Below the pieces are notes generated by a model, which saw only the letters and a program-made list of their open reading frames with translations, was not told the DNA's origin and did not search any database. Of a stretch of 29,758 bases of DNA, positions 2,343 through 19,000 are shown piece by piece. Within the stretch, counting starts at the first letter, position 1. Every line of letters begins with the position of its first letter. A program made the position numbers and the translations under genes. The DNA comes from a virus, in IMG/VR virus record IMGVR_UViG_3300023174_000498, positions 1-29,758 of that record; one strand, given 5' to 3'.

Positions 2343-2358
2343 TAATAAGTTTCATGGT

Positions 2359-2982
2359 TTAACCAGTAATCGCTCTTGTTGGATTGAACTGAGTAATACC
2401 TGCATTGCCGACTCCGCCTGGGTTGGTGGTTTGTAGTGCATTATCGTAACGAATAGCACATGTGATGGTAACAGGATCGTTACTACCATAATCTAAATCA
2501 TTATAATTTACTTCAGTTAAGAAACAACCGTATAATTCCCATGTTTCTAGCACTGTGGGTTCTGTTGTGCCGTTGGCACCGTCAAGTAATTCAATACGAC
2601 TAATAAATTTATAATCAATGCCTGAACTTGCGCTAGCTTGTTCCATAAAATCGTATTGTTTTTGTAGTTGTTCGCCAATCAAACGGCTTACGTTACCACC
2701 TGCGTCATCGCGGAATGTGACAGATGTTGTGGTCCATGTTGGTCGACCTGCAAAGTAAATTTTACTGTTATACACAGGAACTTCGATTGGATCAAATGTC
2801 ACTTGTGGGCGAGCAAATGTCATGATTTGCTTGGTTAATTCAGTCCTTGGATTGGATACACCAAAATTCTCAAATAGTCCGCGAAAGCGAAATTTGAGTT
2901 TGGGCATAAGTAAACCTTGTGTGGTAGCACTTTGATTGCCACCCAAGGGCACTGTGAATCGTGTTAATGATGAGACTGCCAT
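2359..2982 (-). CDS. gp19: Tail tube protein (gp19-like)
   Basis: This 207-residue protein has the features of the T4-like tail tube subunit: N-terminus 'MAVSSLTRFTVPLGGNQSAT', then 'GLLMPKLKFRFRGLFENFG', a 'QIMTFARPQVTFDPIEVPVY' segment and a C-terminal 'YDNALQ' end. T4 gp19 is about 163 residues, so this one is somewhat long. It polymerises as hexameric rings inside the sheath and forms the DNA channel. It lies directly after the sheath gene with only 3 nt between stop and start, so the two are co-transcribed, and it is followed by a strong terminator. The order gp18-gp19 is conserved in T4-like phages, which supports the call. Confidence 0.93.
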   Translation of the reverse strand: MAVSSLTRFTVPLGGNQSATTQGLLMPKLKFRFRGLFENFGVSNPRTELTKQIMTFARPQVTFDPIEVPVYNSKIYFAGRPTWTTTSVTFRDDAGGNVSRLIGEQLQKQYDFMEQASASSGIDYKFISRIELLDGANGTTEPTVLETWELYGCFLTEVNYNDLDYGSNDPVTITCAIRYDNALQTTNPGGVGNAGITQFNPTRAITG

Positions 2983-2985
2983 ATT

Positions 2986-5900
2986 TTATGCTCCTGTTCC
3001 TACGGCTGTTGCGCTAGCTAGATTGCCTGCTTGGATTTCACCAGGGTTTTTCAATCTAATTGGAATGTATATAAATTCAACATCTTTAGTGGGTTGAATT
3101 GCAACGTCTACATACAATTCATTTCTGGCAATACGCTCCGGTGTGTTGTTAGTACCGTCGCAAACTACTAGATAGTCTGTTAGTCCGCGCTTTGCAACTA
3201 AATCATTTAGCAAACTAGAAACTATTGCGCTAATTCCGTTGCGTGTGATCGGATCGTTTGGTTCAAACAAGAATGGACGAGCTAGTATGTTCAATTGACT
3301 TCTAATATAGTTAACTAATCTTGCAACATTGATTCTGTCTAACGCACTTGGAGTTTCACTCAGCGTCTTTTGACCGTATACAACCAATCCTGTGCCAGGT
3401 AAATTGGTCAAAGGATTAATTTTGTTTGTATACATAACATCGCGTAAGCCTTGAGTTATGCCAACACTGATAAACTGACCACTTTCTGCGTCCACATATC
3501 CGATTGCATTTAAGTTGTCAATCAGGCCGCGGCGTGTGCCGGCCGGTGCTAGCCAAGGATAAGAAATATTATCACTCTTAATGATGCTGCGTAGCAATGC
3601 ATGACTTGCTGGGACCACAACTGAATTTCCGTTCAAGTCATTTGTTTGTCCGCTCGGGTAGTATACACCAACATAAGGGTTAATAGTGTTGAGACCGTTT
3701 TCGCCAGTTGATGTAACACCACCTCCATTATTAGCCCAATCTTGGATGTCTGTGCCAGTAGCAGGTAATCTTAATGGAGTATCTGCTATAATAAAGGCTG
3801 TGTTGTCCTTGTCTGCATTTAGTGCAGTCATATTAGGTATCAACTCTGGATAGCCTGGGCAGCAAATCAAGTTGAAGACGTTTTGATCTTCACGCAGCGA
3901 TGTGCCACTGTCGATTGCACTCTTTAGTGCGCTAACTACTACGCCACGTTGGGCTTTTCTACCAAAGTTAGGTAAGCCGTTGTCACTGAAACCACTGACT
4001 GATACCCAAGTTGCTTGCTCTGTTGGTAGGCTTTCGTTTGGATATGCAGCACTTGTGAAGTATGCAGCCTTATATTGTTTGACATTATATCCGCTTGCTC
4101 GTGTATTGAATAACATGATACCACGTGGATACAGCGTTGCATCTGGTGCATCTAAGTCCACATAGTTGCTTGATCGCAATGCGCTGATTGTTGGAATAGA
4201 ATCTGTTGCAGGGTCTACATTACCCGATGGCGCCCAGCGAGCATCTGCAAAGATTATACCGTTTTGACTCACAACATCTGACGTGTCGATTAATACCCAC
4301 TGGTTGACTCCAGAGACAGATTGCCATCTGTAGATCTTGGGATAGTTTTCCAAATCTGCAGAGTCTAGCCATAAGTCGCCGTAAACCAATGGTGTACCGT
4401 CGTCTTGTTCAGTCGGTGCAGTTGTGCTAATAATGGGACCTGTACTATTCGTTTGAGTCAGGTTGTAACCTCTAATGTCAGCTGTTACGTTTCCGTATCC
4501 TGCCCAGCTGGATCCAGTGCTAATCATTATGTCAACACGTCTAGGAGTATTGTAATACCAATAAACATCGTTATCTGGTGCCACATATGGCTGTGAAGCA
4601 CTCACTGTGTAGCCTTCCACACTCAAGGGTTCAAAATTTGTACATAGCAATGTGGTATCGCCTGTCACTGCGCTTGCATACACATTGGTTGCACTTGTGT
4701 TGATACCAACGTTTGCTAGTGCAGTGCCAACTAGATCTTTCACGAACATCTCGCCACCCAGTGCATGTGTTAGGGTAATTTCACCTGTGCTCAGTTGACC
4801 TGCTGTAACGTTGGGTATGGCCGCGGCGGAAACTGCACTAATAAAGCCATTGATTGAGGCTGTTGCAATAGTAACATTGTATGTTGTTACATTGGGACTG
4901 GTTGCAACTGGTCTTGTTATCACACTGAACGTTGCACCTACATTGGCCGCAACTGGCTGAGATAGACTTCCTGTTACCACCAATGCGCCAGCATTCTTTC
5001 TTCTATATAAAACTTCCCCGAATGTGACAGCGTTGCCACCAAGGTTGTTGTAATTTGTAATTACAGTGTCTTGTACAATATTAAAGCCGCCGCCGGTGGG
5101 ATCCAGTCCATAACTAGCTTCAAACAAAGTATTATAATCGCCAACTGTTTTAGCGTCCCACGATAGTGACGAACCATTATATTCTTTCACTACCAAGTTT
5201 AGGCCGCTGCCAACTGCACTGGCCTTTTGCCATACTGAACCAGTTGGACGACCCAAGTTGGCAGCCAAGTTAGAACTTTGCCAATTAGGAATACCATAAT
5301 ACGGAGCTGCGTTGGTAGCTGCTGCCAAATAAGTACCTGCTGTAATACCCAAGTCAGTTAATGGTGTGTTATTACCGTTGCTAATAGCCACTGCGCCATT
5401 GGTCGCAGACTGTGTAGCAGTAATAATAATTTGATACGCAGAACTCAATCTTGCTGTGACACCGGTTATGGCTGCGGAATTAATTGCAGAAATCACTGTT
5501 GTCAAATTCGAACCAGTAGACACCGTTACATTAGTGCTGTTAATTCTAATATTTGCGTTTGCGCTGATTGTTGCATTGGCCACACTACCTGTAATGGTAG
5601 GTATACCTGCTTGCCAACCCACGTTACCAACCAGTTGCCATGAATTATCATAGCGTTTGTGGAAAATAGGATTAGTGTCTAATAGAGTATTAACTGCATA
5701 CTCGCCTATTGCACCTGTAGAAACGTTGGGAACGTTGCCGGTTAATTGTGCGTTACTTGTTATAACTATGACTGCCTCGGATGCAAAACTTTGTGTGCTG
5801 GCATTCCATTCATAAATGCCCCAATTGGTATTGGCAGTGTCCAACCAGAAACTACCGTTTGCTGGATCTGCCAATGGTCTAACTGTGGTTCCTGCAATGC

Positions 5901-6252
5901 TGGCCATATCAATGTTAGCACGTTGAACATACATTGTGTTGCTAACGCCTAACGCACTGTATGCCGCTAGTAAACCATATTCATTTTGCTCGTCCCCGTT
6001 GATTGGAGCTCCGCCTGATGTTGTTTTAAAAATAGGCGTACCAAAAGTTGTAACTAGGTCACGTTGACTAGTGATGTTATATACCTTGCCAGCATTTTCC
6101 ACTAGTGTGCCTGATGCTATCGATGTGCCGCCTGGTGCGATTTTATCCTGTGCTGTTGCCAAAAGAACATACGCAATACTACCGACTGCGGTTGGTGCAT
6201 AATTGCTTTGATCAATTACCGTAACTTGTACGCCTGGAGAAACTAATGCCAT
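2986..6252 (-). CDS. gp18: Tail sheath protein (gp18-like), oversized
   Basis: The 1088-residue product is much longer than T4 gp18 (659). The N-terminus (residues 1-120, 'MALVSPGVQVTVIDQSNY...') and the C-terminal half (about 720-1088, with 'EDQNVFNLICCPGYPE', 'NPYVGVYYPSG', 'RPFLFEPNDPITRNGI' and 'DVEFIYIPIRLKNPGEI') carry the typical contractile sheath core. Between them are exposed insertions: a 'GSFWLDTANTNWGIYEWN' / 'GDLWLDSADLENYPKIYRW' pair (near 133-150 and 620-640), and two modules resembling flagellar hook IN motifs (about 220-308 and 436-525). The ATG is preceded by GAGGAA at good spacing and by a late-promoter octamer 28 nt upstream. The sheath contracts to drive the tube through the host envelope; the insertions probably decorate its outer surface (inference). 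Confidence 0.95.
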   Translation of the reverse strand: MALVSPGVQVTVIDQSNYAPTAVGSIAYVLLATAQDKIAPGGTSIASGTLVENAGKVYNITSQRDLVTTFGTPIFKTTSGGAPINGDEQNEYGLLAAYSALGVSNTMYVQRANIDMASIAGTTVRPLADPANGSFWLDTANTNWGIYEWNASTQSFASEAVIVITSNAQLTGNVPNVSTGAIGEYAVNTLLDTNPIFHKRYDNSWQLVGNVGWQAGIPTITGSVANATISANANIRINSTNVTVSTGSNLTTVISAINSAAITGVTARLSSAYQIIITATQSATNGAVAISNGNNTPLTDLGITAGTYLAAATNAAPYYGIPNWQSSNLAANLGRPTGSVWQKASAVGSGLNLVVKEYNGSSLSWDAKTVGDYNTLFEASYGLDPTGGGFNIVQDTVITNYNNLGGNAVTFGEVLYRRKNAGALVVTGSLSQPVAANVGATFSVITRPVATSPNVTTYNVTIATASINGFISAVSAAAIPNVTAGQLSTGEITLTHALGGEMFVKDLVGTALANVGINTSATNVYASAVTGDTTLLCTNFEPLSVEGYTVSASQPYVAPDNDVYWYYNTPRRVDIMISTGSSWAGYGNVTADIRGYNLTQTNSTGPIISTTAPTEQDDGTPLVYGDLWLDSADLENYPKIYRWQSVSGVNQWVLIDTSDVVSQNGIIFADARWAPSGNVDPATDSIPTISALRSSNYVDLDAPDATLYPRGIMLFNTRASGYNVKQYKAAYFTSAAYPNESLPTEQATWVSVSGFSDNGLPNFGRKAQRGVVVSALKSAIDSGTSLREDQNVFNLICCPGYPELIPNMTALNADKDNTAFIIADTPLRLPATGTDIQDWANNGGGVTSTGENGLNTINPYVGVYYPSGQTNDLNGNSVVVPASHALLRSIIKSDNISYPWLAPAGTRRGLIDNLNAIGYVDAESGQFISVGITQGLRDVMYTNKINPLTNLPGTGLVVYGQKTLSETPSALDRINVARLVNYIRSQLNILARPFLFEPNDPITRNGISAIVSSLLNDLVAKRGLTDYLVVCDGTNNTPERIARNELYVDVAIQPTKDVEFIYIPIRLKNPGEIQAGNLASATAVGTGA

Positions 6253-6280
6253 GTTTCATTTCCTCATAAATCTATAAAGA

Positions 6281-6288
6281 TATTTATC
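6281..6288 (-). promoter_or_regulatory. Late promoter GATAAATA for gp18-gp19
   Basis: Minus-strand GATAAATA sits 28 nt before the gp18 ATG, with a GAGGAA ribosome site between. It matches the T4-type late octamer except for the first base. It starts the gp18-gp19 unit, which ends at the hairpin near 2330. Confidence 0.7.
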
Positions 6289-6330
6289 GAAAGTAATGAA
6301 ATATAGTCTAGTTGGAGTACCTTTCGAAAT

Positions 6331-6338
6331 GATAAGTA
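6331..6338 (+). promoter_or_regulatory. Weak late-promoter-like octamer GATAAGTA
   Basis: Plus-strand GATAAGTA (two mismatches to TATAAATA) ends 7 nt before the ATG at 6346, so the predicted leader would be about 2 nt. It diverges from the gp18 promoter, the two lying about 40 bp apart. No Shine-Dalgarno is visible at normal spacing. This is a tentative call. Confidence 0.35.
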
Positions 6339-6345
6339 TTTTACA

Positions 6346-6693
6346 ATGAGATCTATATGCCCAATTTGCCACCAAAACCCAGTTGCTATAAATTATACCA
6401 GCAATGGTAAAACAAGATATAGAAAAATTTGCAACAGTTGTGACAGACAAGACAAAAAATTAAAACCCATTCCGCCACCTTGGTTTAAAGCAGGGTATCG
6501 AAAAAAGCCCGTTTGTGAAAAATGCGGATATCGGGCCAAATACTTAGAAAAACAAATGACTGTGTATCATGTTGACGGTAATTTAAAAAACACAACCACA
6601 ATGAATTTAAAAACAGTTTGTTTAAATTGCAGAGTCGAAATTGCCCACAGCAGGCTACCTTGGCGGGAGGGCCCGCTTACACCAGATTTTTAA
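6346..6693 (+). CDS. Small four-CxxC zinc protein with HNH-like C-terminus
   Basis: This 115-residue protein has four CxxC pairs: CPIC (5-8), CNSC (29-32), CEKC (57-60) and CLNC (92-95), enough for two zinc sites. Residues 75-95 follow the HNH layout (H75-V-D-G-N79, N87, then C92-x-x-C95), but the residue after C95, where HNH nucleases often have the last metal-binding His, is Arg. So it is zinc-binding by pattern, and nuclease activity is doubtful. Proteins with this layout are, from memory, common conserved hypotheticals in T4-like aquatic phages. It is on the opposite strand from its neighbours and its last 17 bp overlap the 3' end of the dNMP kinase gene. Its role is unknown. Confidence 0.85.
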   Translation: MRSICPICHQNPVAINYTSNGKTRYRKICNSCDRQDKKLKPIPPPWFKAGYRKKPVCEKCGYRAKYLEKQMTVYHVDGNLKNTTTMNLKTVCLNCRVEIAHSRLPWREGPLTPDF

Positions 6694-7288
6694 GTTGACG
6701 ATACAGTTCTTCTACTGAATCATTGTTATCAATGATAAGATCAAACTCTGTACCAGCCCAAGAAAACTCGCTGGCATGAATTGCGTTAAGTCCCAACCAT
6801 TCCCGAGCTTGGTTATCGCCCCTATTGGCAGATTCTGCAATACTGAACCATGCTGGATCCGGTCCTCGCACAATTCTAATTATGCGGCCACCGGCTCTGC
6901 GTATACTGGCAATTTCGTTAGGAAATCTACAATCACTGATTACAATGTGATCTTTGGCTGTGCGCAGTTTATTTTCTACACTAGCAATCCAAATATCATC
7001 ATGGAACGCTTTTCGGCACACCTCTGTGCCCCATTGTTGTAGCACATGTCTCGGGGTTAAATTGGGCATATTCAGACGTTGACTCCACCATGGATCAATT
7101 TGTTCCCGCCATTCACGGGCCGCTTTAGTCCGACCTTCTAATAATTCTCGATCCCAACCGAACACTGCTGCTACTGCGTCTTTGAGAGTTCCTGCATAAC
7201 TTTCTCTTTTAAATTCATGAAAGTTTACCAAATAATCTGCGGCAGTGTCTTTGCCTGCGCCAATCAAACCACAAATACCTATAATCAT
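6677..7288 (-). CDS. Deoxynucleoside monophosphate kinase (T4 gp1-like)
   Basis: The 203-residue protein opens with a P-loop, G7-L-I-G-A-G-K13-D14, matching the GxxGxGKD form used by phage dNMP kinases and related P-loop NMP kinases. Later features fit too: 'RHVLQQWGTEVCRK' (the 'LQxxGTE' signature), 'IVISDCRFPNE' and a C-terminal 'DLIIDNNDSVEELYRQL'. The enzyme phosphorylates dNMPs to dNDPs, feeding the phage DNA precursor pool in the cytoplasm. It follows gp13 after 32 nt with its own AGGGAG site, so it is probably co-transcribed with a late structural gene, which is an odd place for a nucleotide enzyme. Its end overlaps the convergent zinc protein. Confidence 0.88.
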   Translation of the reverse strand: MIIGICGLIGAGKDTAADYLVNFHEFKRESYAGTLKDAVAAVFGWDRELLEGRTKAAREWREQIDPWWSQRLNMPNLTPRHVLQQWGTEVCRKAFHDDIWIASVENKLRTAKDHIVISDCRFPNEIASIRRAGGRIIRIVRGPDPAWFSIAESANRGDNQAREWLGLNAIHASEFSWAGTEFDLIIDNNDSVEELYRQLKNLV

Positions 7289-7320
7289 AAAAAAGGACTC
7301 CCTGGAGACCTTATTTTACA

Positions 7321-8478
7321 TTATCCAGTGACCCATGTCAACGGTTGTGACCCATCAACATAATTTTTTAGTTCTTCTTCCAACTTTTCCATTTCGGCCT
7401 GTGCTTCTTGCAGTAGGGCTGCACCGTTCAAACTGCCGCCACCTTGTGGGCCAGCAATTTGACTGAACTTGCCGCGAGCTTGGCCTAGAATCGATTTACA
7501 AAACGCAAGAGCATATTCTTGTAACCAGGGATAAACCATTGGATCACTCAAAAGTAAACTGTCGGGTTTATGGTTAAAAATCCACAATAACACACTTTCC
7601 ATGTTGTTTGTCTCAGGGTCTTTGTCTGGGAATAACACCGTAGCTTTTTGCAGGTCCGAGCCAGTGACTGAAGTTGCGCCCAATGACTGACTAGCAGTTA
7701 CCGTAATCGTGGTGCCGTTAACTGTCAGAACTCTATATTCTCCGCTATAGCCTCTGGTAGGACAATTTTGAATATAGATACTATCGTCTACCGCAACTGT
7801 TTGCAATGGCGCTGATTTCAACACTATAGTTATAGTGCTACCTATAGTTGTCCCACTCGAGGACAAACTTGTTAATGAAACACTTTGGCCGTTGTCGTAA
7901 GGAATTTTCCTCACCAGAGTAAGTTTTTTAGTTACACGGTTCCAAGTGTAGTTCATATACCCACCAAACATGGTCATGGCCAGTTCTTGATATTGGGTGA
8001 ACAGTTCGTAGTTGGTCAATCCGCCGACACGGCCTGCAACTAACATATATGTGTTCAAATAACCGCTGGCAAAGGGTTCAAATTGACTAGCTGTTGTGCC
8101 ACTAACACTACCAATGCCTCTTCGGAAGATTTGACGCACTTCCATGATATAATTGGGCAGTATGTATTCTTGTACGTTGGGCATTAGATCCAAAAACGCA
8201 TAACTTTCTTCAACTGCGTTTTGAGCTTTTTGTCGATATTTGGTAAGTGCTTGTTTAATTGCTAGATCGTAATGCTCTTTATCCAACTCAACGTCAACAA
8301 TCTGATCACCTAGACGTAGACGAATGTAATCAACCATGTCATTGCGTAATTGATTAAGTGTTTGAATTTGTGGGTTAGCCGCTATAGCAGTGGCTTGACT
8401 AATGGGACCAGGACCGCCAAGGTCCTGGGTTCTAATGCTTAAATCGTTTTTTAGATCTGGCTGTATTAATGTTGACAT
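7321..8478 (-). CDS. gp13: Neck protein (gp13-like)
   Basis: This 385-residue protein matches the T4 gp13 plan: an N-terminal helical part with 'YIRLRLGDQIVDVELDKEHY' and 'LAIKQALTKYRQ' (52-83), a middle with 'TNYELFTQYQELAMTMFGGY' (155-174), 'YTWNRVTKKLTLVRKIP' (177-193), and a C-terminal helix containing 'YPWLQEYALAFCKSILGQ' (316-333), 'GKFSQIAGPQGGGSLNG' and a final 'PLTWVTG'. It joins the portal/head to the tail. Residues 197-282 are a beta-rich insertion absent from T4 gp13 (309 residues). The start has AGGA 7 nt upstream and a late-promoter octamer 18 nt upstream. gp14 and gp15, usually next to gp13, are here on the opposite strand 1.8 kb away. Confidence 0.85.
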   Translation of the reverse strand: MSTLIQPDLKNDLSIRTQDLGGPGPISQATAIAANPQIQTLNQLRNDMVDYIRLRLGDQIVDVELDKEHYDLAIKQALTKYRQKAQNAVEESYAFLDLMPNVQEYILPNYIMEVRQIFRRGIGSVSGTTASQFEPFASGYLNTYMLVAGRVGGLTNYELFTQYQELAMTMFGGYMNYTWNRVTKKLTLVRKIPYDNGQSVSLTSLSSSGTTIGSTITIVLKSAPLQTVAVDDSIYIQNCPTRGYSGEYRVLTVNGTTITVTASQSLGATSVTGSDLQKATVLFPDKDPETNNMESVLLWIFNHKPDSLLLSDPMVYPWLQEYALAFCKSILGQARGKFSQIAGPQGGGSLNGAALLQEAQAEMEKLEEELKNYVDGSQPLTWVTG

Positions 8479-8496
8479 AAATGAGTCCTATAGCCA

Positions 8497-8504
8497 TATT
8501 TAGC
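8497..8504 (-). promoter_or_regulatory. Late promoter GCTAAATA for gp13-dNMP kinase
   Basis: Minus-strand GCTAAATA ends 18 nt before the gp13 ATG, with AGGA in the short leader. It is flanked by a 6-bp inverted repeat (TATAGC/GCTATA). It lies in the 42-nt gap after the preceding gene's stop at 8521. Confidence 0.6.
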
Positions 8505-8520
8505 TATATGAACTCAGATG

Positions 8521-9687
8521 CTATGCAACTTTTAACAACAACCAATCCACACTGATACGACCAGTTAACTTGGTTTCTGTGGCTTTGATATCGTCCAAGA
8601 ACTTTCTAAGTTGGACTTTGCCCGCTTTGGCAAACTCTTTCAGCTTTTCATCCGGTTTACGTAGAGTTTTGCTAGTGGACTTGTCAGTGTCGAAACCTTC
8701 AATGCTGGTGCCTTTGATACTGAGTTGCTTGTATGCCGCAGCCACATACTTTCCGAGTTTTCGTGTTTTGGAGTTGTAGACCCACAATTCGCTGGCTCCG
8801 ATTATATCCGCAGGGTTGATAGAGACCATTTTGAGTGACGCATCAGATTTCGCATACTTGAGCTTTGCAACCTGCTTTTCTTTACTAGGAGCCTTCTTAA
8901 CACGAGCTTTCTTAGTCGCTTTTTTGACTCCACGGTACTGATCCACTGCTAACAATAGATCATCGATCCAGGCAATGATGCGTTTGAAATCCGCTGCCTT
9001 GAGGTGGCTATAACCCTCTTTGAGTTGGGCATCTTCTTTTCCCTGTGCGCCTACTAGTTCGGCCTTGCGCTTGCTGTACACGGCCTCGTACTTGCCCAAC
9101 TGACTCTGCGCCACATTGTTGGCAACTAAAAAATCATACAGTTTAGTTGGATTTTTAACACCTGTTGCGACGTCGTCAAAGACCCCCTCGAGTTCTCCGA
9201 TGATTTCACTAGTCTTTTCATTTAGTCGATCCTGAATGGTGGGCACATGTGCTTTGGGCTTGTCGACGGCTGCTAGTGCAATTACTTCAGGTTCGGCTTT
9301 GTCAATAACTTCTTGTACGCTATTAATAATAAATTCAATGTGGCGACCACGAAAGGGCATGCCTTGACGATGTGCCATGATCAAACTGCACACTGTCATA
9401 GGTAACAAACGATCACCTGCACGATTAAATGCACGAATTTCTTCTGTTGTTAGTTTACTGTTCCTTTGCAACCATTCAACCACATACTTCTTGCAGTCCT
9501 TTTGACTATAGTAATAATTGTAGTAATAGAAACTCTTACGTAGGCGGCTATCAAATTTCTCTCCGTCCCAATCTGCAGATTCTGCCGGCCATTCGGGTTC
9601 CGGACCTGTATATTTCTCGTCTGCAAATGCAACACGTACAGCACGTGGTGCCTTAGTTTTAATCTTGATTCCTGCCACTGTTGCCAT
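8521..9687 (-). CDS. Conserved-type phage protein of unknown function, 388 residues
   Basis: The start is the ATG at 9687: AAAGGAG lies 8 nt upstream, and the A of this ATG is the last base of the previous gene's TAA stop (TAATG coupling). An earlier in-frame start at 9735 lies inside that gene and is unlikely. The protein begins 'MATVAGIKIKTKAPRAVRV', has a very aromatic run near residues 53-61 ('SFYYYNYYYSQKD'), a predicted helical middle, and a Lys/Arg/Ala-rich linker ('KKATKKARVKKAPSKEK') near residues 257-273. The C-terminus is 'LTGRISVDWLLLKVA'. There is no recognisable catalytic motif. It lies at the end of a three-gene unit under sigma-70 promoters, which suggests early expression. 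A DNA-binding or takeover role would be a guess. Confidence 0.8.
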   Translation of the reverse strand: MATVAGIKIKTKAPRAVRVAFADEKYTGPEPEWPAESADWDGEKFDSRLRKSFYYYNYYYSQKDCKKYVVEWLQRNSKLTTEEIRAFNRAGDRLLPMTVCSLIMAHRQGMPFRGRHIEFIINSVQEVIDKAEPEVIALAAVDKPKAHVPTIQDRLNEKTSEIIGELEGVFDDVATGVKNPTKLYDFLVANNVAQSQLGKYEAVYSKRKAELVGAQGKEDAQLKEGYSHLKAADFKRIIAWIDDLLLAVDQYRGVKKATKKARVKKAPSKEKQVAKLKYAKSDASLKMVSINPADIIGASELWVYNSKTRKLGKYVAAAYKQLSIKGTSIEGFDTDKSTSKTLRKPDEKLKEFAKAGKVQLRKFLDDIKATETKLTGRISVDWLLLKVA

Positions 9688-9920
9688 TACACACGCTCCT
9701 TTTTTACGCGGCCAATTCGGCTCGCTTTGTTCCAATCATAAACAACACCATCTGGACACACGCCATCCCGGATGCTGTCTACACCAAAAATTCCACACGC
9801 TTCAAATTCAAGACCTTTAATAGTCACAAACACCCCAACAGTTTTGGCAAAGATCATTGCTTCGTCTAGAGTTGAAAACTCGTTGAGTGGCAGATTATTT
9901 TTGCTTGTTATTTTATACAT
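9687..9920 (-). CDS. Small hypothetical protein, 77 residues
   Basis: The ATG at 9920 lies 6 nt after a perfect TATAAT, so the mRNA is probably leaderless; no Shine-Dalgarno exists upstream and the next in-frame Met is 20 residues in. The stop (TAA) overlaps the ATG of the 388-residue gene by one base. The product ends with a 'VDSIRDGVCPDGVVYDWNKA' and 'SRIGRVKKERV' region, a C-terminal arrangement I recall from hypothetical proteins in aquatic T4-like phages, and there is a short basic tail. Its function is unknown. Coding is supported by codon continuity, the coupled stop/start and the promoter. Confidence 0.8.
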   Translation of the reverse strand: MYKITSKNNLPLNEFSTLDEAMIFAKTVGVFVTIKGLEFEACGIFGVDSIRDGVCPDGVVYDWNKASRIGRVKKERV

Positions 9921-9926
9921 AGTGTA

Positions 9927-9955
9927 ATTATACTACCAAATTGGTTTTATGTCAA
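9927..9955 (-). promoter_or_regulatory. Perfect sigma-70 consensus promoter for the 77-residue gene
   Basis: On the minus strand, TTGACA (9955-9950) and TATAAT (9932-9927) are separated by exactly 17 nt. All twelve consensus bases match. The predicted +1, 7 nt past the -10, is the A of the ATG at 9920. The -35 starts just after the stop of the upstream 88-residue gene. The host RNA polymerase should read it from the start of infection. Confidence 0.9.
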
Positions 9956-9956
9956 A

Positions 9957-10223
9957 TTAGTACATGAGTGCAGTAAATGTGCCCCACTGCCCAAAAACTG
10001 TAACGCATTCATCAAATTGAACTTCTAGTTCAGTGTACTTTAGTGTTATTTTTTTAAGTCTGCGACAATTTACAAATTCCCTGTCCAATTCATTCCATAC
10101 AGAGCTGACATTTTTATAAAATTTAAACATTTTACTTTTGGGAACTATCCCCATGGATTGCAACTGGCTAAAGCATTCTTGCAATTTAGTATGGCTTTGG
10201 CTGTGGCGTTCGTACATGTCCAT
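9957..10223 (-). CDS. Small hypothetical protein, 88 residues
   Basis: The product is 88 residues, 'MDMYERHSQSHTKLQECFSQ' onward, predicted mostly helical, with Lys/Arg in the middle and 'YTELEVQFDECVTVFGQWGT' near the end. No domain is recognised. It is the first gene of a leftward early-type unit. The ATG at 10223 would be at +1 of the perfect promoter upstream; a second in-frame ATG two codons later (10217) is an alternative start, with GGGATGG just before it. Its function is unknown. Confidence 0.72.
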   Translation of the reverse strand: MDMYERHSQSHTKLQECFSQLQSMGIVPKSKMFKFYKNVSSVWNELDREFVNCRRLKKITLKYTELEVQFDECVTVFGQWGTFTALMY

Positions 10224-10229
10224 CCCATA

Positions 10230-10258
10230 ATTATATAACCAAAATCATTAATTGTCAA
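10230..10258 (-). promoter_or_regulatory. Perfect sigma-70 consensus promoter for the 88-residue gene
   Basis: On the minus strand, TTGACA (10258-10253), a 17-nt spacer and TATAAT (10235-10230) match the bacterial consensus at all twelve positions. The ATG at 10223 lies 6 nt past the -10, the same geometry as the promoter at 9927-9955. It points away from the adjacent late promoter of gp14. Confidence 0.9.
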
Positions 10259-10261
10259 ACC

Positions 10262-10269
10262 CATAAATA
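10262..10269 (+). promoter_or_regulatory. Late promoter CATAAATA for gp14-gp15-Nudix
   Basis: Plus-strand CATAAATA ends 20 nt before the gp14 ATG, the spacing seen at most late promoters in the window. It sits 3 nt beyond the -35 of the divergent sigma-70 promoter, so early and late polymerases would compete for this site. Confidence 0.7.
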
Positions 10270-10289
10270 CACTATTATCGGAATCCAGT

Positions 10290-11669
10290 ATGCCAAGACT
10301 AAGCATGTGGCGCGACAACCACACAAATGATTATAAATTCTTTGACCAGCGTATCAGCGAAACGTTTACCATCGGCGGTACTGGTATTTTATTACACAAG
10401 TATTTAGGACCCACTGCACAAGCCAACGCCTATGTTACTACAGGAAATACCAGTGCCAACACAAGAACTTTATATTTTGCCAACGTAAGCACATTTGAAG
10501 CAGGGCAAACAGTTTCTGGTGTGGGCATACAAAGCAATACCATAATTTTTAGCACCAATGTGTCTGCTAACTCTATCACTATTAGCAGTAATGCAACTTC
10601 CACCATTAGCACCGGTCGTCCCATTAGCATTTATTGGAATCAACCCAGTCAACCCAATTACACAAATCAAAGTCTATTGAACATACAAGATTTATTATTT
10701 TTAGAAAATAGAGATCGAAAGTATGATACCAGTGTTTATGTATTAAGAGGCATCTACAACGTTAGCGATAACGACTGGGACCTAAGTCAGTTTGGACTAA
10801 TGTTGAGTACTGACACTATTGTCGTGACATTCCACCTGACAGACACTGTGGCTTCCATTGGAAGAAAATTGATGAGCGGGGATGTGATCGAGTTGCAACA
10901 CAAAAAAGATTACTATCCATTAAACAGCGATTTACCCGCAGCATTGAAACGATTCTATGTCATTCAAGATGTAACATTTGCTGCCGAAGGATTTAGTCAG
11001 ACCTGGTGGCCGCACTTGCTAAGAATCAAAGCCACACCACTCGTTAATGCGCAAGAATACAAAGATATTCTTAACAATATTACCGCTAGTGAAAGCAACG
11101 ACACACCATTGGGTCAATTCATGACCAACTTCGACTTGCTCAATCAAATCAATGATGCAGTTATTGCACAAGCAGAAATCGACGTGCCCAAAAGCGGATA
11201 CGACACAGATGTTCTTTATGTTGAACCTATTGCCAGCGAAGGGAATCCAGGTGACCCGTTGGGAACTCAAGTTGATGATACTAGCATACGTGTCGATAGC
11301 ACAACTATACCGTTAGCAGACTCCGGTGTAGTTACTCCCGATACCACTATTCCTGCCTACTTGGGCGGTGACGGAACTAGCCCCAATGGTTGGCCTGTTA
11401 CAGTCAGTACCAGTTTTCCGGGTCAGCCTGCCATCGGCGATTACGTTCTACGTACAGATTACATGCCCAATAGACTTTTCCGATTTGATGGTCGTCGTTG
11501 GATCAAAATTGAAGACAATGTGCGTACAACACTTACACCTGGACCAAATAATCAAACACAACGCAGTAGGTTTGTTAACGACTCCAGTACATTTACCAGT
11601 GTCGAAGGTCAAACACTTCCAACCAGACAAAGCCTTAGCAAGGCGCTTACCCCAAAGGCAGATAACTAA
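10290..11669 (+). CDS. gp14: Neck protein (gp14-like), with inserted beta-module
   Basis: The 459-residue product opens 'MPRLSMWRDNHTNDYKFFDQ' and contains a core resembling T4 gp14: 'NIQDLLFLENRDRKYD' (131-146), 'DWDLSQFGLMLSTDTIVVTF', 'MSGDVIELQHKKDYYPL' and 'LKRFYVIQDVTFAAEGFSQT', the gp14-like 'FGL...GDVI' layout. T4 gp14 is 256 residues; extra length comes from a beta-module at 52-115 and a long C-terminus with a 'RLFRFDGRRWIKIED' strand. gp14 with gp13 completes the head for tail docking. It overlaps gp15 by one base (TAATG). That gp15 follows and is clear supports the call; by sequence alone this is moderately sure. Confidence 0.75.
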   Translation: MPRLSMWRDNHTNDYKFFDQRISETFTIGGTGILLHKYLGPTAQANAYVTTGNTSANTRTLYFANVSTFEAGQTVSGVGIQSNTIIFSTNVSANSITISSNATSTISTGRPISIYWNQPSQPNYTNQSLLNIQDLLFLENRDRKYDTSVYVLRGIYNVSDNDWDLSQFGLMLSTDTIVVTFHLTDTVASIGRKLMSGDVIELQHKKDYYPLNSDLPAALKRFYVIQDVTFAAEGFSQTWWPHLLRIKATPLVNAQEYKDILNNITASESNDTPLGQFMTNFDLLNQINDAVIAQAEIDVPKSGYDTDVLYVEPIASEGNPGDPLGTQVDDTSIRVDSTTIPLADSGVVTPDTTIPAYLGGDGTSPNGWPVTVSTSFPGQPAIGDYVLRTDYMPNRLFRFDGRRWIKIEDNVRTTLTPGPNNQTQRSRFVNDSSTFTSVEGQTLPTRQSLSKALTPKADN

Positions 11670-13258
11670 TGGCTTTACAACAATTTTTTTACGACCAACA
11701 AATACGTCGATTTATCGTTCAGTTTATTCGAGTGGTGTCAAACTTCCAAGTTGAATTTGGTAAGGATCGTAGTGGAGTAACATCATTGCAGCGTGTGCCT
11801 GTTATATACGGAGACAGTAGTAGGCAGGTTGCCAGTATACTCACACAGGGCAGCGAAAGTTATCTACATACAGTACCTGCCATGGCAGTGTATGTTACTG
11901 GGCTGACATATGATCGTGATAGAGTGCAAAACCCAACGTTCACTAGCAAGATGCAACTGCGAGAGCGATACTATGATCCTTATTCTGGCAATTATAGCAC
12001 ACAGCAAGGTGACACCTTGACCGTTGAGCGACTAATGCCTGTACCCTATAGTTTGACCTTAAAATTAGACATTTGGACCAGTAATACTGAACAAAAATTA
12101 CAACTAATAGAACAAATTTGTACTTTGTTTAACCCTGCACTGGAGATACAGAGCACAGATAATTATATCGATTGGACCAGTTTGAGTTACGTTTTACTAA
12201 ATGACATTCAATGGACTAGTCGTACAGTGCCATCAGGCAGCGATGTTAATCCAATGGATATTGCAACACTGACTTTTATTTTACCAATTTGGATTAGTAG
12301 TCCGTCATTGGTTAAGAAAATGGGTGTGATTCAAAAGATTATTGCAAGTGTGTTTAACAGCGAAAATGACTTAGAAGATGCTATTTACAATGATAACAGA
12401 CTGTTAAGCAGACAATACATAACCCCACTACAATACAGTGTGTTATTAATCGGTAATCAATTGAGTTTGGTGCGATACAACAGCCCTGTGGTGAACCCCA
12501 TTGAATCGCAAGTGATTAAGAAAATCTCAGCCAACGTGTTGTCAAACACCACTGTAACATTGAGTAGCACAAATGACATTCAAACTGGCATGCGATTGTC
12601 TGGCACTAATATAAACTCTAATTGCACCGTTATTGCCATTAACGGTGACACTATTACAACTAACACAAACGTCACTGCTAATGTGGGTGATAGAATTAGC
12701 TTCACACTTTATTCTTATAAGATAGGCATTAGCGAAAATTGGAGAGATTTAGTTAATGTGTATGGAAATTTAACTAATGGCACAAGTCAAATTAAACTTG
12801 AATTGGACGACGGCAACGAAGTGATGGGCACTGTTGCATACCACCCGTCTAATGATAATGTGTTGTTATGGACTGCGGATGTAGATACTATGCCAGTGAA
12901 CACACTCGAGCCAATTAATGCCATAATAGATCCAGAACGCAGTCGACCAAATAATGATTTATCGGCCGCAACATTGAACACTCGCTACCTGCTAGTTAAT
13001 GATTATGTGGGCACAGAAGGTGACCAACCTACTTATAACTGGCTAGGTAAGGATGGCCAGGCACTAGTGGCCTATGCAAATGATATTATTCAATTTAACG
13101 GAGAATTTTGGTTTGTTGTATTTGACAGCGGTCAGGAAAATTCTGTACAATATGTAACAAACTTAACTAGCACGGTTCAATATAAATTTAGTAATGGCGC
13201 ATGGACTAAAAGTTACGAAGGACCGTACGAAGCAGGAAAATGGGAACTGATACTCTAA
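11669..13258 (+). CDS. gp15: Tail terminator / sheath stabiliser (gp15-like), C-terminally extended
   Basis: Residues 1-220 match the T4 gp15 plan: 'QFFYDQQIRRFIVQFIRVVS' with 'NFQVEF', 'RVPVIYGDSSRQVASIL', a 'VYVTGLTYDRDRVQNPTFTS' strand, 'MPVPYSLTLKLDIWTSNTEQ' with 'KLQLIEQICTLFNP', and 'DIATLTFILPIWISSPS'. T4 gp15 (272 residues) caps the tail tube and sheath so the tail can join the head. Here the protein is 529 residues. The extension holds a beta-module at 284-347 like the one in gp14, and a C-terminal 'AYANDIIQFNGEFWFVVFDS'-type part. Translation is coupled to gp14 (TAATG), and its 3' end overlaps the Nudix gene by 19 bp. Confidence 0.87.
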   Translation: MALQQFFYDQQIRRFIVQFIRVVSNFQVEFGKDRSGVTSLQRVPVIYGDSSRQVASILTQGSESYLHTVPAMAVYVTGLTYDRDRVQNPTFTSKMQLRERYYDPYSGNYSTQQGDTLTVERLMPVPYSLTLKLDIWTSNTEQKLQLIEQICTLFNPALEIQSTDNYIDWTSLSYVLLNDIQWTSRTVPSGSDVNPMDIATLTFILPIWISSPSLVKKMGVIQKIIASVFNSENDLEDAIYNDNRLLSRQYITPLQYSVLLIGNQLSLVRYNSPVVNPIESQVIKKISANVLSNTTVTLSSTNDIQTGMRLSGTNINSNCTVIAINGDTITTNTNVTANVGDRISFTLYSYKIGISENWRDLVNVYGNLTNGTSQIKLELDDGNEVMGTVAYHPSNDNVLLWTADVDTMPVNTLEPINAIIDPERSRPNNDLSAATLNTRYLLVNDYVGTEGDQPTYNWLGKDGQALVAYANDIIQFNGEFWFVVFDSGQENSVQYVTNLTSTVQYKFSNGAWTKSYEGPYEAGKWELIL

Positions 13259-13671
13259 AAGCCAGTTGCGGTGCATTAATATATTGCACTTCCACCAAAC
13301 GATACTTATTTTTGCTACGCACCGGGGGCAAATACCCTAACACATGGGGTATTGTTGGAGGCAAAATTGAGCCAGGTGAAATTGAATTGATTGCATTGAA
13401 TCGGGAGATCAACGAAGAACTTGGAGGGGAAATTAAGGGCGCACAAATACACAGTGTCAATCAATATATAAGTGATGGGGGTAATTTTACATACCATACA
13501 TTTTTAATTCAAGTTGACGAAGAATTTGTTCCTGATTTAAACTCAGAACACAAAGGCTACTGCTGGGTTAAATTGGATGATTATCCTAAGCCGTTGCATC
13601 CAGGTGTTTACAAAACTTTTAAAATTAAAGAAACGCTCGATAAGATTCGCGAAACTGAACTAATCAAGTAA
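13240..13671 (+). CDS. Nudix hydrolase
   Basis: This 143-residue protein contains a full Nudix box, G41-x5-E47-x7-R55-E56-I-N-E59-E60-L-G62, the metal-binding and catalytic helix that hydrolyses nucleoside diphosphates linked to another moiety. The last position of the box is Gly instead of a bulky aliphatic residue. Before it lies 'YLFLLRTGGKYPNTWGIVGG', the usual strand-loop. Phage Nudix enzymes can clean nucleotide pools or remove mRNA 5' caps; the substrate cannot be read here. The ATG lies inside the end of gp15 (19-bp overlap), preceded by GCAGGAAA. It shares the late gp14-gp15 transcript. Its end overlaps the convergent glycosyltransferase-like gene by 8 bp. Confidence 0.92.
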   Translation: MGTDTLKASCGALIYCTSTKRYLFLLRTGGKYPNTWGIVGGKIEPGEIELIALNREINEELGGEIKGAQIHSVNQYISDGGNFTYHTFLIQVDEEFVPDLNSEHKGYCWVKLDDYPKPLHPGVYKTFKIKETLDKIRETELIK

Positions 13672-14404
13672 CTCCGATGTCGCATTCGGAGATAAATTGT
13701 CGAATTCCGATTTGTCTAACGTTAGAACAATATTTCCAAGACTCAGGCATATCCTCGGATCCACCAGGCATAACTCTAATAAATTCTACATTTTCATAGG
13801 TATCAAAGACTTCTTTGCATTGTTTTTCCCATAGTGCGCCATCAATTTCCGATGTCTTGCTGCCGTATCCATGTGTGCCTGCGTAAATATTGTTATTAAA
13901 ATGCGGACTATCTTGTCCGTCAAACCCCATAAAATAAACATGATTGTGTTTATCAAATGCGGCCAAATATAGTGCTGTGGCACCTGCACACATATTTTTA
14001 TCAAACGGAATCAAATGAAATTTATCGGGATATTTTTTAATATGTCTTATTCCAGTAATCACAATGTTATTATCTGCATAACCTGACTCCACTACTTCCT
14101 TAACGATCTCAGGATGTCTGACTATTAAAAAGTGAGGATTGGTATCTCTATGTAATGCATTACATCCGTAGACTGTTAATTTTTTATTGGCAAGTAAACC
14201 ACCTTTGTGATTGATCAACAGAGCAAAATTTATGTTTATATATTGTCTACTTAACCCATTGCCGATAACCAAGGACATGCCAGTGTTCCGATTAGTTATG
14301 GTATTAGGGAACCATTCCCGTTCTTGAATAACCCGACCCTGTACCTTGTTGGTACCGTGTATGATAAATTCACCTAAATAATCATTTCTGTATTGTTTTT
14401 CCAT
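13664..14404 (-). CDS. Rossmann-fold protein, DUF115/CST-I-like putative glycosyltransferase
   Basis: This 246-residue protein shows the motif order of the DUF115/MptE-like and CST-I sialyltransferase-type families: 'SLVIGNGLSR' (44-53, nucleotide-binding loop), 'YGCNAL' (79-84), 'CAGATALYLAAFDKH' (139-153) and 'HVYFMGFDGQD' (155-165). In these families the motifs line a sugar-nucleotide site. I recall similar proteins as hypotheticals in aquatic phages. The gene has its own late promoter and AGGAAG site, and lies beside the fibre genes. It might modify host surface or virion glycans, but the sugar and acceptor are unknown and the family is inferred from motifs alone. It is convergent with the Nudix gene. 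Confidence 0.7.
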   Translation of the reverse strand: MEKQYRNDYLGEFIIHGTNKVQGRVIQEREWFPNTITNRNTGMSLVIGNGLSRQYININFALLINHKGGLLANKKLTVYGCNALHRDTNPHFLIVRHPEIVKEVVESGYADNNIVITGIRHIKKYPDKFHLIPFDKNMCAGATALYLAAFDKHNHVYFMGFDGQDSPHFNNNIYAGTHGYGSKTSEIDGALWEKQCKEVFDTYENVEFIRVMPGGSEDMPESWKYCSNVRQIGIRQFISECDIGVT

Positions 14405-14424
14405 TGTAGTCTTCCTATTACTAC

Positions 14425-14432
14425 TATTTAAC
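14425..14432 (-). promoter_or_regulatory. Late promoter GTTAAATA for the glycosyltransferase-like gene
   Basis: Minus-strand GTTAAATA ends 20 nt before the ATG at 14404; the leader contains AGGAAG. It lies in the short gap after the fibre gene stop at 14453, with no clear terminator in between. Confidence 0.62.
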
Positions 14433-14452
14433 CAATTCTGTATTATTTCCCA

Positions 14453-15973
14453 TTATAATCTACCTACTACCACTTCTATTAGAGTTTGTTCATCGGATTC
14501 AAAATTTTCCAAAGATTTACCTACTACACATCCAGGAGCATAAGAGTATTGATTTAATTTTTGTGCTACGCCCGGAGTACTACTGGTGACCAGCAAGTCA
14601 CCTTTACACACAGGCCCTTTGACTTGGCATGGTACACGACCTTGCAAGGCCACAGGTAAACCATCACACCCGCTGTTCATCAGGTATGCAGGATTAGTAG
14701 AAATGATGCCGGCTACTCGTGTGTCATGTGATTCAGTGGTTGTTGTTATTTCTTGTTCCCCACCAAATATAACAACAGTGCCAGGTGCATACTCTGCGTC
14801 TGCGATATAATTTTCTGCCAAGTCAGCATATTGTGCTGTTGTTGCTTTAGCAAATATTGTGTTAAATGTGGCTCCCGAAGCTCCGATGTTACCTGTACCC
14901 GAAGTTCCGCCGTTGACGATAGCGGTGGCATTGTTGCCGCTATTAACTGTTATCTGTCCTGACGCTGTAACAGAAGTAAACGATCCAGTGCTTGCTGTGG
15001 AATTACCGATCGGTGTATTTTGTAAACCGCCATTTGCAGTAAATGCGCCTTGATACGTTAATGGTCCGGAACCACTGCGACCCAAACTCAGCTGGGTACC
15101 ATTACCAAATATCAGATACCCTTGCGATCCATCTTGCTGGCCTTTTAGTACCATTGTGTTGGCTAGGTTTATATCGCCTAGCCAAACATCATCACCGACT
15201 GCGTAATTTGTGCCATTTCCATTATTAGTAGAATAAACTTGGCCGCAGTAAACGTTTCCGCTTACACCAATGCCGCCGTTTGGTACTATCAACACACCGG
15301 TACTGGCACTTGTCGAAGTTATACTAGCATTGGCAATTACTTGTCCGTTGGCTTGATATAACAAGCTGGTTGCACCGCCAAAGCTCGAACCACCGTTATT
15401 AAATTGCACTTGTGTAGCAGTGCCGCCCGGGGGTGTGACTGATCCTGCACCCAAGTTAGTTCCAGCACCTGCAGCCAAACTAGATATATCAAAGTATCCG
15501 CCTCGGCTAGTACCGCCTGTTTCAAAAATCCTAAATTTGTTTTGAAAAACATCAACAGTAACACCAGTTGATAGTGTGGTATTGGTAACTGCGTTAGCTA
15601 ATTGTAGTTCACCGCCTTCGTCCCCTGATCTGTTTGTGGATCTAATAAATTGTCCGTACACATATTCTGTTGCTGTTATGGACGTTACATTGGCGCTGTT
15701 GCTAGCTACTAAATTTCCAACTGTTAAATTAGCGTTGGCTGTGACTGTTAGGTTGCCGGCGGCTTTACCTGTGCTGGATGTATATACAAGGTTAAAGCCT
15801 TGTATGCTTTCTCGCCAAATAATGGCCACATTGGAGCCGCCGCCTTGACTACGATCAAACAGCTCACCTATGTCTCTATTGGCCACGTTACCAAAGTTGG
15901 TAATTGTAATTGGATCACTAAATGTAGTTAAGTTAGTGTTAAGATTATTGAATGCCGGTCTTGTTAATGCCAT
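14453..15973 (-). CDS. Tail-fibre-type protein with conserved C-terminal domain, 506 residues
   Basis: The protein is a beta-rich, Asn/Thr/Gly/Ser-rich adhesin: N-terminus 'MALTRPAFNNLNTNLTTFSD', then stretches such as 'YVYGQFIRSTNRSGDEGGEL' and 'GTATQVQFNNGGSSFGGATS'. The last 125 residues ('KATTAQYADLAENYIADAEY' onward, with 'VAGIISTNPAYLMNS', 'ALQGRVPCQVKG', 'KGDLLVTSS' and 'GKSLENFES') are the same domain as at the end of the 1479-residue fibre. Its shape resembles known phage fibre intramolecular-chaperone/autocleavage domains (Peptidase_G2 class); that is a suggestion, not shown. The protein is probably a receptor-facing fibre. It has its own late promoter and a strong terminator upstream. 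Confidence 0.82.
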   Translation of the reverse strand: MALTRPAFNNLNTNLTTFSDPITITNFGNVANRDIGELFDRSQGGGSNVAIIWRESIQGFNLVYTSSTGKAAGNLTVTANANLTVGNLVASNSANVTSITATEYVYGQFIRSTNRSGDEGGELQLANAVTNTTLSTGVTVDVFQNKFRIFETGGTSRGGYFDISSLAAGAGTNLGAGSVTPPGGTATQVQFNNGGSSFGGATSLLYQANGQVIANASITSTSASTGVLIVPNGGIGVSGNVYCGQVYSTNNGNGTNYAVGDDVWLGDINLANTMVLKGQQDGSQGYLIFGNGTQLSLGRSGSGPLTYQGAFTANGGLQNTPIGNSTASTGSFTSVTASGQITVNSGNNATAIVNGGTSGTGNIGASGATFNTIFAKATTAQYADLAENYIADAEYAPGTVVIFGGEQEITTTTESHDTRVAGIISTNPAYLMNSGCDGLPVALQGRVPCQVKGPVCKGDLLVTSSTPGVAQKLNQYSYAPGCVVGKSLENFESDEQTLIEVVVGRL

Positions 15974-15994
15974 TGTCTATCTCAAATATTGTAG

Positions 15995-16002
15995 TATTTA
16001 GT
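15995..16002 (-). promoter_or_regulatory. Late promoter ACTAAATA for the 506-residue fibre
   Basis: Minus-strand ACTAAATA ends 21 nt before the ATG at 15973 and lies directly beside the terminator of the preceding gene. Confidence 0.62.
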
Positions 16003-16004
16003 AA

Positions 16005-16034
16005 AAAATAAAGGGTCCGAAGACCCTTTATTTT
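16005..16034 (-). terminator. Strong terminator after the 1479-residue fibre
   Basis: A 13-bp stem (with a GGGTC/GACCC core) has a TTCG tetraloop in minus orientation (CGAA in plus) and A/T runs on both sides. It lies about 14 nt after the fibre stop at 16048 and could also stop plus-strand transcription. Confidence 0.92.
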
Positions 16035-16047
16035 GAGTTGGCTTTTT

Positions 16048-19000
16048 TTATAATCTACCAATTACCACTTCAATTACGCCTTCGGTGCCATCAAAGTTTT
16101 CTAGCGATTTACCAATTACTGTACCCATTTTTGGATTAGCGTCTGCTCTGGCATAGCCGTTGCCTGCACTGATCATCATGTCGCCTTTACGTACTTGGCC
16201 TTTGACTAGACACGGTACACGACCTTGCAGTGCTATGGATACCACTTTGCCTGCACCTTCGTATGCGCTGTTCATCAAATAAGCTGGGTTTGTAGATACT
16301 ACACCTGCAACTCTTGCTGTGGCATTCGATGCCAGTGTAACTTCTGATACACCGCCAAATTCCAATACAGTGCCTGGAGGATATACGTCATCGCTGGCAT
16401 AATTTTCTGCCAAGTCAGCATATTGTGCTGACGTTGCTTTGGCATGGATTGTGTTGTATTGTAATACTGTGCTACCAATATTGGCACTGCCGTTTGCACT
16501 TGGTAAAATGCTGCCGCTGTGTGTTATAGCAGTTGAGCTAAACACCACTGTGTTGGCAGTTCCCCCCACTGTGACAGCAATATTTGAGCTAGAATAAACT
16601 TTAACGTTACTGGTTCCTGCTGTAATACTTGTGGCGTCAACACCAATCAATGAGCTACCGTTGGCACTCAATACTGCTGGGGTGGTTCCGTCCGGACCAA
16701 AGAAAGCAATAGTGTTGCCTGCTGTTTCTTTGATTACAATATTGCCCATGTACAATGTTGTGCCGCTTAACCATAAATCTTTCCAACGACGTGAGTTAGA
16801 ACCCAAACCATATGTCACATTGGCACTTGGCATAATATTACCAGTGAATCTAGCCTCGCTGTTAGCTTGAATACTGAACGATTCATTTCCAGCAGTTCTA
16901 AATGTGGTAATTTGACTACCTGCAGCAGGTAAGTCGTAGAACAGACCTGTTGTACCAGCAGCGTCTGTGATGGTTGTAACCTGTGTTGTTGTTACGAACA
17001 CACGGAAGTCAATTGTGTCTGTGCTAGCTGGAGCTTCTGTAAATGTAACCACGTTACCTGCGATGCTGTATGCGGCAGTTGGTTCTTGTACCACACCGTT
17101 GATACTGACTATGGTACCTGCTGTGGTTGCGTTGGCAATCGGAATAGTAAACGATGTTGCAGATCCGTTACCAGTTTGTGTGTTAGCAGTTACAATAGTA
17201 AAGTTTGTACTAGGAACATTCCAGGCACTACCATCATACCATTCTGGCAAGTTTGATGTTGTGCTGAAACGGAACATACCAATAACTGGTGAACTGGGTC
17301 TTGCGGCAGTGGTTCCTTTTGGCAACATGATACTGTTGTTTGTGGCAAAATCTATTACTGTGCCTGTTGTTGGCGTAGCAGTATTAACACCAATCTGAGA
17401 TCCAGTAACTACAAATGTATTGGCTGTGGTGCCTTGAATAACTGTCCTGCTGTCATTCAAACCACTATTGAATGTGGTTGTGCCTGTGCCATTTGGATTG
17501 ATAGTCAATCCAGTGTTGGTTATGTTGCTGCTGATTGTGGTGTTACTGAATGTAACGTTGCCCAAGTTGGCTGCTGTTTGTACATTCAATGTGCCTGCAA
17601 TACCTGCTCCGCCAATTACCACCAACGCACCAGTAGTTGATCCTGTACTTGCTGTACCGCTGTTAGCAACAATATTGCCACTAGCAATGATTGTGCCAGT
17701 CGAAGTTATTGTGGTAAATGCGCCTGTACTGGCTGAAGCATTACCAATTGGTGTTGATTGCAAACCGCCATTAAAATTGCCTGCACCAGTGGCTACCAAT
17801 GAGCCTGATAGTGTAATACCAGTACCATTGATGTTGCCAGTTACACCCAGTGTTGTGCCAATAGTTGCACTACCTGTTAATGTGGCACTTGTACCATTGA
17901 TGTTGCCAGTTACACCCAGTGTTGTACCAATAGTTGCACTACCTGTTAATGTGGCACTTGTACCATTGATGTTGCCAGTTACACCCAGTGTAGTGCCGAT
18001 TGTGGCAGATCCGTTGACTGTTAACGCTGCACCGGTTATGTTACCTGTTGCACTTACAGTAGTAAATTGACCAGTGCTGGCTGATGCATTACCAATCGGA
18101 GTTGCTTGAATACCGCCTAATGCACTCAATGATGTGATTGCGGTAATTGAGCCGTTGCTAGTTAGTCCTGCACCTGTAATGTTGCCAGTAGCACTTACAG
18201 TAGTAAATTGACCAGTGCTGGCTGATGCATTACCAATTGGTGTTGCTTGTAGACCACCCAAGTGCTGGCCAGCGCCTGTTGTAACTATGGAACCACTTAG
18301 TGTAGCACCAGTACCGTTGATATTACCTACAACACCCAGTGTGCTTCCAACTGTTGCGGATCCGTTAACGGTTAACGCAGATACAGTTGTGTTGCCGCTT
18401 GAACCTACAGTAGTAAACAGAGCTGTACTTGGTGTTACGTTACCAATTGGAGTATTTTGAATACCACCCAGTGCTTGTAAAGTTGTACCCACTACTGCAC
18501 TAGTATTAACTGTTAAACCGTTAACTGTTATGTTACCAGTATATGTTGTTCCACCCGAAACACTTAGCGTACCAGAAACAATAGTGTTACCTACTCTGAT
18601 TTGATCATATTGAGCATTGGTAAAATCAACTGTGATACCAGGCTCAGCAACAACGTTACTGAATAATTTCCAGGTACCGTCTGTGTTGTCTCGTACGAAA
18701 CCAGTGTGCTGATAAATGTTAGCATTGACGTTGCCTGGGTTACCACCTTGATATTGACTATAAAAACCAATACTGTAGTTATATGGGAAAATACTATTAG
18801 CAGTTAGGTATAATAACGGATCTTGAACTGACAATGTGTTTGCTTGGATCGCAATAATGTTACCAGCATAGATGTTACCAGTAACATACAAGTTTTTATT
18901 AACGCTTGCGCCGCCAGTGACCTGTAAAGCTCCAGTACTTGCACCTGTTGCATCTGTTGCATTGGTAATAGTAACAATACCTGACGCACCTAATGCTGTG

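Follow-up and report, generated by a model that had tools for sequence, protein, structure and literature searches.

Genomic Setting and Promoter Anatomy

The window analysed here is an entire IMG/VR record of 29,758 b. Its proteins match a tail sheath, a major head protein, a head-tail adaptor, and a dNMP kinase, in the manner of T4-type structural genes, and the tail sheath is closest to those of jumbo phages (e.g., Phosso, PA5oct, and Munch). The records of relatives reach 354 kb, whereas the window's own record is limited to 29,758 b.

Two small genes head an operon on the minus strand. The first encodes a protein of 88 residues (P0002; 9957-10223, ATG at 10223), and the second a protein of 77 residues (P0001; 9687-9920, ATG at 9920) that belongs to an orphan phage family. 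Each is preceded by a TTGACA hexamer, a spacer of exactly 17 nt, and a TATAAT hexamer (minus strand, 10258-10230 and 9955-9927), with the ATG 6 nt further on. For the 88-residue gene, the -35 hexamer lies at 10253-10258, the -10 hexamer at 10230-10235, and the 6-nt discriminator TATGGG at 10224-10229. For the 77-residue gene, the corresponding elements are found at 9950-9955, 9927-9932, and 9921-9926 (discriminator TACACT). As the second promoter begins 2 nt past the stop codon of the 88-residue gene, the space between the two genes barely exceeds the promoter itself. Both promoters fall within the sigma-70-type definition (TTGACA, 16-18 nt, TATAAT), and they are the only two in the window in which all 12 hexamer positions agree with the consensus.

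The next gene of the operon (phrog_11903; 8521-9687, minus strand) is devoid of its own promoter. Its ATG (9687) overlaps the stop codon of the 77-residue gene (TAATG), and it is led by an AAGGAG Shine-Dalgarno (SD) sequence. A third strong promoter, TTGACA-17-TAAAAT (7313-7341, minus strand), lies upstream of the dNMP kinase gene. There, the ATG (7288) is located 24 nt from the promoter and the leader contains an SD-like AGGGAG, so that a leadered class is present in the same window. This leader (7290-7313 in the window; homologues in L039 and L071) also carries a terminator-like hairpin and a T-run just before the ATG, with the SD-like AGGAG/GGGAG held in the 3' arm of the hairpin. In L074 and L085, by contrast, the dNMP kinase gene is of the leaderless kind, with a gap of 6 nt.

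The first-pass annotation had described two perfect sigma-70 promoters with 17-nt spacers and 6 nt to the ATG, and had judged them unlikely to occur by chance; both statements proved exact. A first-order model predicts 0.012 perfect promoters with a 17-nt spacer per window; requiring an ATG at 6 nt lowers the expectation to 0.00025. It could be argued that A/T-rich phage DNA yields perfect promoters near ATGs, as promoter-like sites of ordinary quality do not exceed shuffled sequences (49 weaker sites vs. 48.8 in shuffles, bases 1-20000). Nevertheless, the low expectation of the joint pattern, its conservation over many relatives, which already refutes chance, and a genome-wide P of about 1e-11 (see below) make this explanation vanishingly improbable.

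No SD is present upstream of either ATG 10223 or ATG 9920. For the 77-residue gene, an in-frame TAG (9935-9933), just before the -10 hexamer, excludes an upstream start, and the next in-frame ATG is codon 22; the earlier remark that this gene has neither an SD nor a nearby alternative start is thus correct. Neither mRNA is structured in its first 50 nt. Both genes show the features of leaderless genes, namely an AUG start no more than about 5 nt from the predicted 5' end, and no SD. The same annotation had placed the transcription start (+1) exactly on both start codons. This stands for the 77-residue gene, where the base at -1 is T and +1 is predicted at the A of ATG 9920 (initiator T(-1)A(+1)). 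For the 88-residue gene, the placement has to be relaxed: the predicted initiator is G(-1)A(+1), GGG directly precedes the ATG, and the predicted +1 lies at the ATG or at most 3 nt away, giving a leader of 0-3 nt.

Conservation in the 77- and 88-Residue Families

Relatives of the 77-residue protein occur in at least 429 IMG/VR stretches, and none were found in GTDB genomes or GenBank phages. Its protein matches are restricted to uncultured Caudovirales, the predicted structure has a pLDDT of 64, and searches for its function returned no Pfam or PHROG family and no PDB fold match. Among 58 non-redundant relatives, 40 carry a promoter (TTGAC-N18-TATAAT, with at most two mismatches) just before the ATG. 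The gap from promoter to ATG is 6 nt in 37 of these, 5 nt in two, and 7 nt in one; the spacer is 17 nt in all 40, and none has an SD. The remaining 18 relatives lack the promoter, and a clear SD is found in nine of them. The annotation had named non-conservation of the spacing in relatives as a result that would speak against leaderless genes. The comparison shows it to be conserved, and supports the leaderless reading.

In 25 divergent upstream sequences, the hexamers reach 1.8-2.0 bits per position, with the intervening bases mostly below 0.7; since the promoter-bearing relatives were picked by their hexamers, this invariance partly reflects selection, whereas the distances and the base at -1 are much less constrained by it. 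Spacer and flank bases drift, and only the two hexamers, the 17-nt length of the spacer, and the 6-nt gap persist. A pyrimidine occupies position -1 in 24 of 25 promoter-bearing upstreams vs. 2 of 17 without the promoter (Fisher P = 2e-8), as expected if transcription starts at the A of the ATG.

These alignments also bear on whether the ATGs at +1 are used at all. The proteins might instead start inside, from an internal ribosome site, the 6-nt gap being the remainder of a compact promoter. Short reading frames could indeed be mis-started, and codon 22 of the 77-residue gene is an ATG. Nevertheless, conservation of the N-terminus MYK(V/I)ISK begins at residue 1, and extends to relatives in which an SD precedes the same ATG. 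In addition, seven relatives (L018, L019, L021, L024, L025, L033, and L036) carry a four-residue N-terminal extension with an unchanged gap, which means that the promoter has shifted upstream with the new ATG. An internal start is, for these reasons, very improbable.

The C-terminal 25-30 residues of the family (consensus DGKCPDGVAYDWNKASRIGRVKKERV; 9687-9776 in the window) are nearly invariant, with a low-confidence structure prediction, and appear in this respect as for a conserved binding tail. In L030 (4891-5001), the leaderless promoter of the 77-residue gene adjoins the 3' end of a tRNA gene, and a similar tRNA-like sequence lies just upstream in L023 (4469-4505).

The 88-residue protein is predicted to form a three-helix bundle (pLDDT 93.5), and has no Pfam or PHROG family and no PDB fold match from which to assign its function. 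All 15 family members examined carry the promoter at 5-9 nt from the ATG, most of them at 6 nt. Although the start codons differ by two codons among members, the gap is preserved. A second in-frame ATG (10217) had been proposed as a possible start with a very short leader. Its use is less likely, since the longer start is also found in L083 (MDILERH), again with a gap of 6 nt; in favor of the proposal, L060 starts at the equivalent of 10217, likewise with 6 nt.

Other Genes with the Same Arrangement

The class also includes genes for DnaJ (PF00226), UvdE (PF03851), and a 5'-3' exonuclease (PF02739). UvdE has the arrangement in all three related records, and the exonuclease in two. For the latter, a promoter lies against the ATG in 42/42 non-redundant IMG/VR upstreams, 37 of them at 6 nt and three at 9 nt, and no SD is found in any of the 42. 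These relatives are close (77-88% protein identity). Presence of the promoter played no part in choosing the set, and the hexamers stand out from their flanks. The three related records had led to the expectation that UvdE is uniformly leaderless, which had to be abandoned, as only 7 of 53 relatives keep the arrangement. With this result and the 18/58 relatives of the 77-residue protein that lack the promoter, the arrangement is seen to be gained and lost by lineage.

Genome-Wide Signal and Breadth

In three related records of 338, 354, and 225 kb, an ATG is found at distance 6 after 10/29, 12/46, and 7/30 perfect promoters, respectively, against expected numbers of 0.48, 0.83, and 0.64. This corresponds to an excess of approximately 10-20-fold (P = 2e-11, 3e-11, and 3e-6). 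Neighboring distances are at background level, with at most one ATG at distances 4, 7, and 8 and a few at 5, and promoters with a wrong -35/-10 spacing show no distance-6 peak in these records. The enrichment is not significant in PA5oct (P = 0.26) or Munch (P = 0.08). T4 and Sinorhizobium phage Phosso contain no perfect promoter of the TTGACA-17-TATAAT type, and are hence uninformative on the spacing.

The breadth of the arrangement was surveyed by scanning, in collection order, for perfect promoters followed by ATGAA within 0-30 nt. This free-gap scan replaced the first loci of a scan fixed at distance 6, which were biased and not used for frequency. In these small, first-come samples, distance 6 accounts for 10/56 viral vs. 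1/57 cellular cases (P = 0.004), and distances 5-7 for 17/56 vs. 3/57 (P = 0.0005), which suggests that environmental phages often carry leaderless genes. At some perfect promoters (G001:C1:6421-6491 and G002:C1:282836-282906, the latter on the minus strand), the ATG at +1 opens a mini-ORF of only 4-6 codons, reminiscent of 5'-uAUG mini-ORFs in E. coli.

The SD-Led Class and the Transcription Start

The same phages also contain strong promoters at the other common promoter-ATG distance, 18-33 nt, where the gene is led by an AAGGAG-type SD. In the 63 promoters of this class, the sixth position after the -10 hexamer is a pyrimidine (Y) in 84% of cases, the seventh an A in 70%, and the eighth a T in 76%; bases 6-8 read CAT in 29/63 and TAT in 9/63, mostly continuing as ATA. 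As no start codon is present there, this Y-A-T motif identifies the seventh base as +1 without reference to translation. The initiator of the leaderless class is likewise Y-A-T, but with G at +3.

This motif helps to weigh the possibility that the promoters are real, with transcription starting 1-5 nt upstream or heterogeneously, so that the mRNAs would have very short leaders. The GGG before the ATG of the 88-residue gene and the minority of family members at 5, 7, or 9 nt are compatible with such near-leaderless transcripts. The peak is, however, one base wide (6 nt, with some at 5), and the initiator of the SD-led promoters independently designates the seventh base, which leaves such a start unlikely.

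The spacing could also be a general habit of a host rich in leaderless genes, rather than specific to the phages. Leaderless genes are common in some phyla, e.g., mycobacteria and Deinococcus-Thermus (PMC4633059, PMC12340547). Against this, the same phages give 63 strong promoters AAGGAG-type SDs vs. 41 that are leaderless, and the promoters here are full -35/-10 promoters. A host habit is a serious candidate, albeit a rather unlikely one, and the leaderless mechanism itself would be compatible with it.

Promoters of phage tRNA arrays (L243:2851, minus strand; L030:892, L026:1411, L038:1524, and L078:4061) are followed by a small hairpin and a GTTCTTTAAAAATTT-like sequence. This resembles the boxA antiterminator of bacterial rRNA operons, and may also point to the host. 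Record G002 (L243, L244) contains about 48 predicted tRNA genes in about 23 kb, with many isoacceptors duplicated.

Proposed Mechanism

Promoter anatomy, the conserved exact spacing, the absence of an SD, and the Y-A-T initiator can be read directly from the DNA. The favored interpretation, to which we give a probability of about 0.87, is that host-type sigma-70 promoters are fused to start codons and yield leaderless mRNAs, translated by leaderless initiation, in a class that stands beside the SD-led one. Unmodified host RNA polymerase of the sigma-70 type would use both promoters. Transcription of the 77-residue gene would start on the seventh base after the -10 hexamer, the A of the ATG, and that of the 88-residue gene at the ATG or at most a few bases upstream. 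Both mRNAs would then open with AUG, with neither leader nor SD, and a 70S ribosome with initiator tRNA would bind the 5'-terminal AUG. The sharp 6-nt peak fits the need for an AUG at the very 5' end. As the 77-residue gene has no SD, its product would come mainly from its own short transcript, with little from read-through of the 88-residue gene. The annotation had also called both genes early; early timing is plausible, the host-type promoter being its one indication.

More broadly, this group of environmental, mostly jumbo, T4-like phages would possess host-type promoters of two kinds, one leaderless and one SD-led. The SD-led class would share the promoter and the initiator, but its transcripts would start with AUA, not AUG.

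Comparison with Known Systems and Significance

The best known phage example is the lambda cI mRNA transcribed from PRM, which is leaderless and serves as a standard substrate for leaderless initiation. As proposed here, it is a phage mRNA starting at its AUG, without an SD, and made by the host sigma-70 RNA polymerase. Leaderless repressor mRNAs, which PMC9031893 and PMC4965119 discuss, come, however, from isolated genes of temperate phages, whereas approximately 10-18 candidates are found here per jumbo-phage record. Unlike lambda cI, some of these candidates encode enzymes of replication and repair, and their spacing is exact and conserved.

In E. coli, leaderless initiation involves 70S ribosomes and requires a 5'-terminal AUG (PMC9031893; PMC4965119). 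The 5'-uAUG leadered mRNAs of this bacterium also have a 5'-terminal AUG, bound there by 70S ribosomes, but their main product is that of the downstream SD-led gene, whereas the 5' AUG starts the main gene here (PMC4965119). In Deinococcus-Thermus, a -10 element located a few bp upstream of the start codon gives leaderless mRNAs, beside a class with promoter and ribosome-binding site (PMC12340547). The likeness lies in the -10 element adjacent to the open reading frame and in the two classes found side by side; these are, however, cellular genes with a weak -35 dependence, in contrast to the full consensus -35/17/-10 of the phages (PMC12340547).

Among giant phages, AR9 has mapped promoters, and the paper describing them remarks that phage transcripts are often leaderless; nevertheless, AR9 uses its own RNA polymerases and has leaders of 26-491 nt (PMC5312081). 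Pseudomonas phage PA5oct and Salmonella phage Munch, related through the tail sheath, have host-type promoters, but no significant excess of ATGs at 6 nt. A conserved, exactly spaced leaderless class in lytic jumbo phages was not found in the literature searched, mostly without subscription papers. Leaderless phage mRNAs are known; the novelty lies in lytic genes that form a conserved class with exact spacing, in phages that use SDs as well.

Studies of leaderless translation in SD-using bacteria have so far relied on a few mRNAs, e.g., lambda cI. With dozens of conserved leaderless genes standing beside SD-led ones behind the same promoter, this phage group constitutes a natural, replicated test of when leaderless initiation is favored. 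Gene calls can be corrected as well, since gene finders requiring an SD may overlook such genes or assign them a wrong start. As to what the phages might gain, any benefit is a matter of conjecture, and we only tentatively put forward, as a possibility more doubtful than not, that environmental jumbo phages keep a dedicated leaderless channel. Selected lytic genes, including a replication nuclease, would be tied to promoters with +1 on the start codon and translated by 70S ribosomes solely from their own transcripts, which would supply product when initiation through SDs becomes limiting or is altered during infection.
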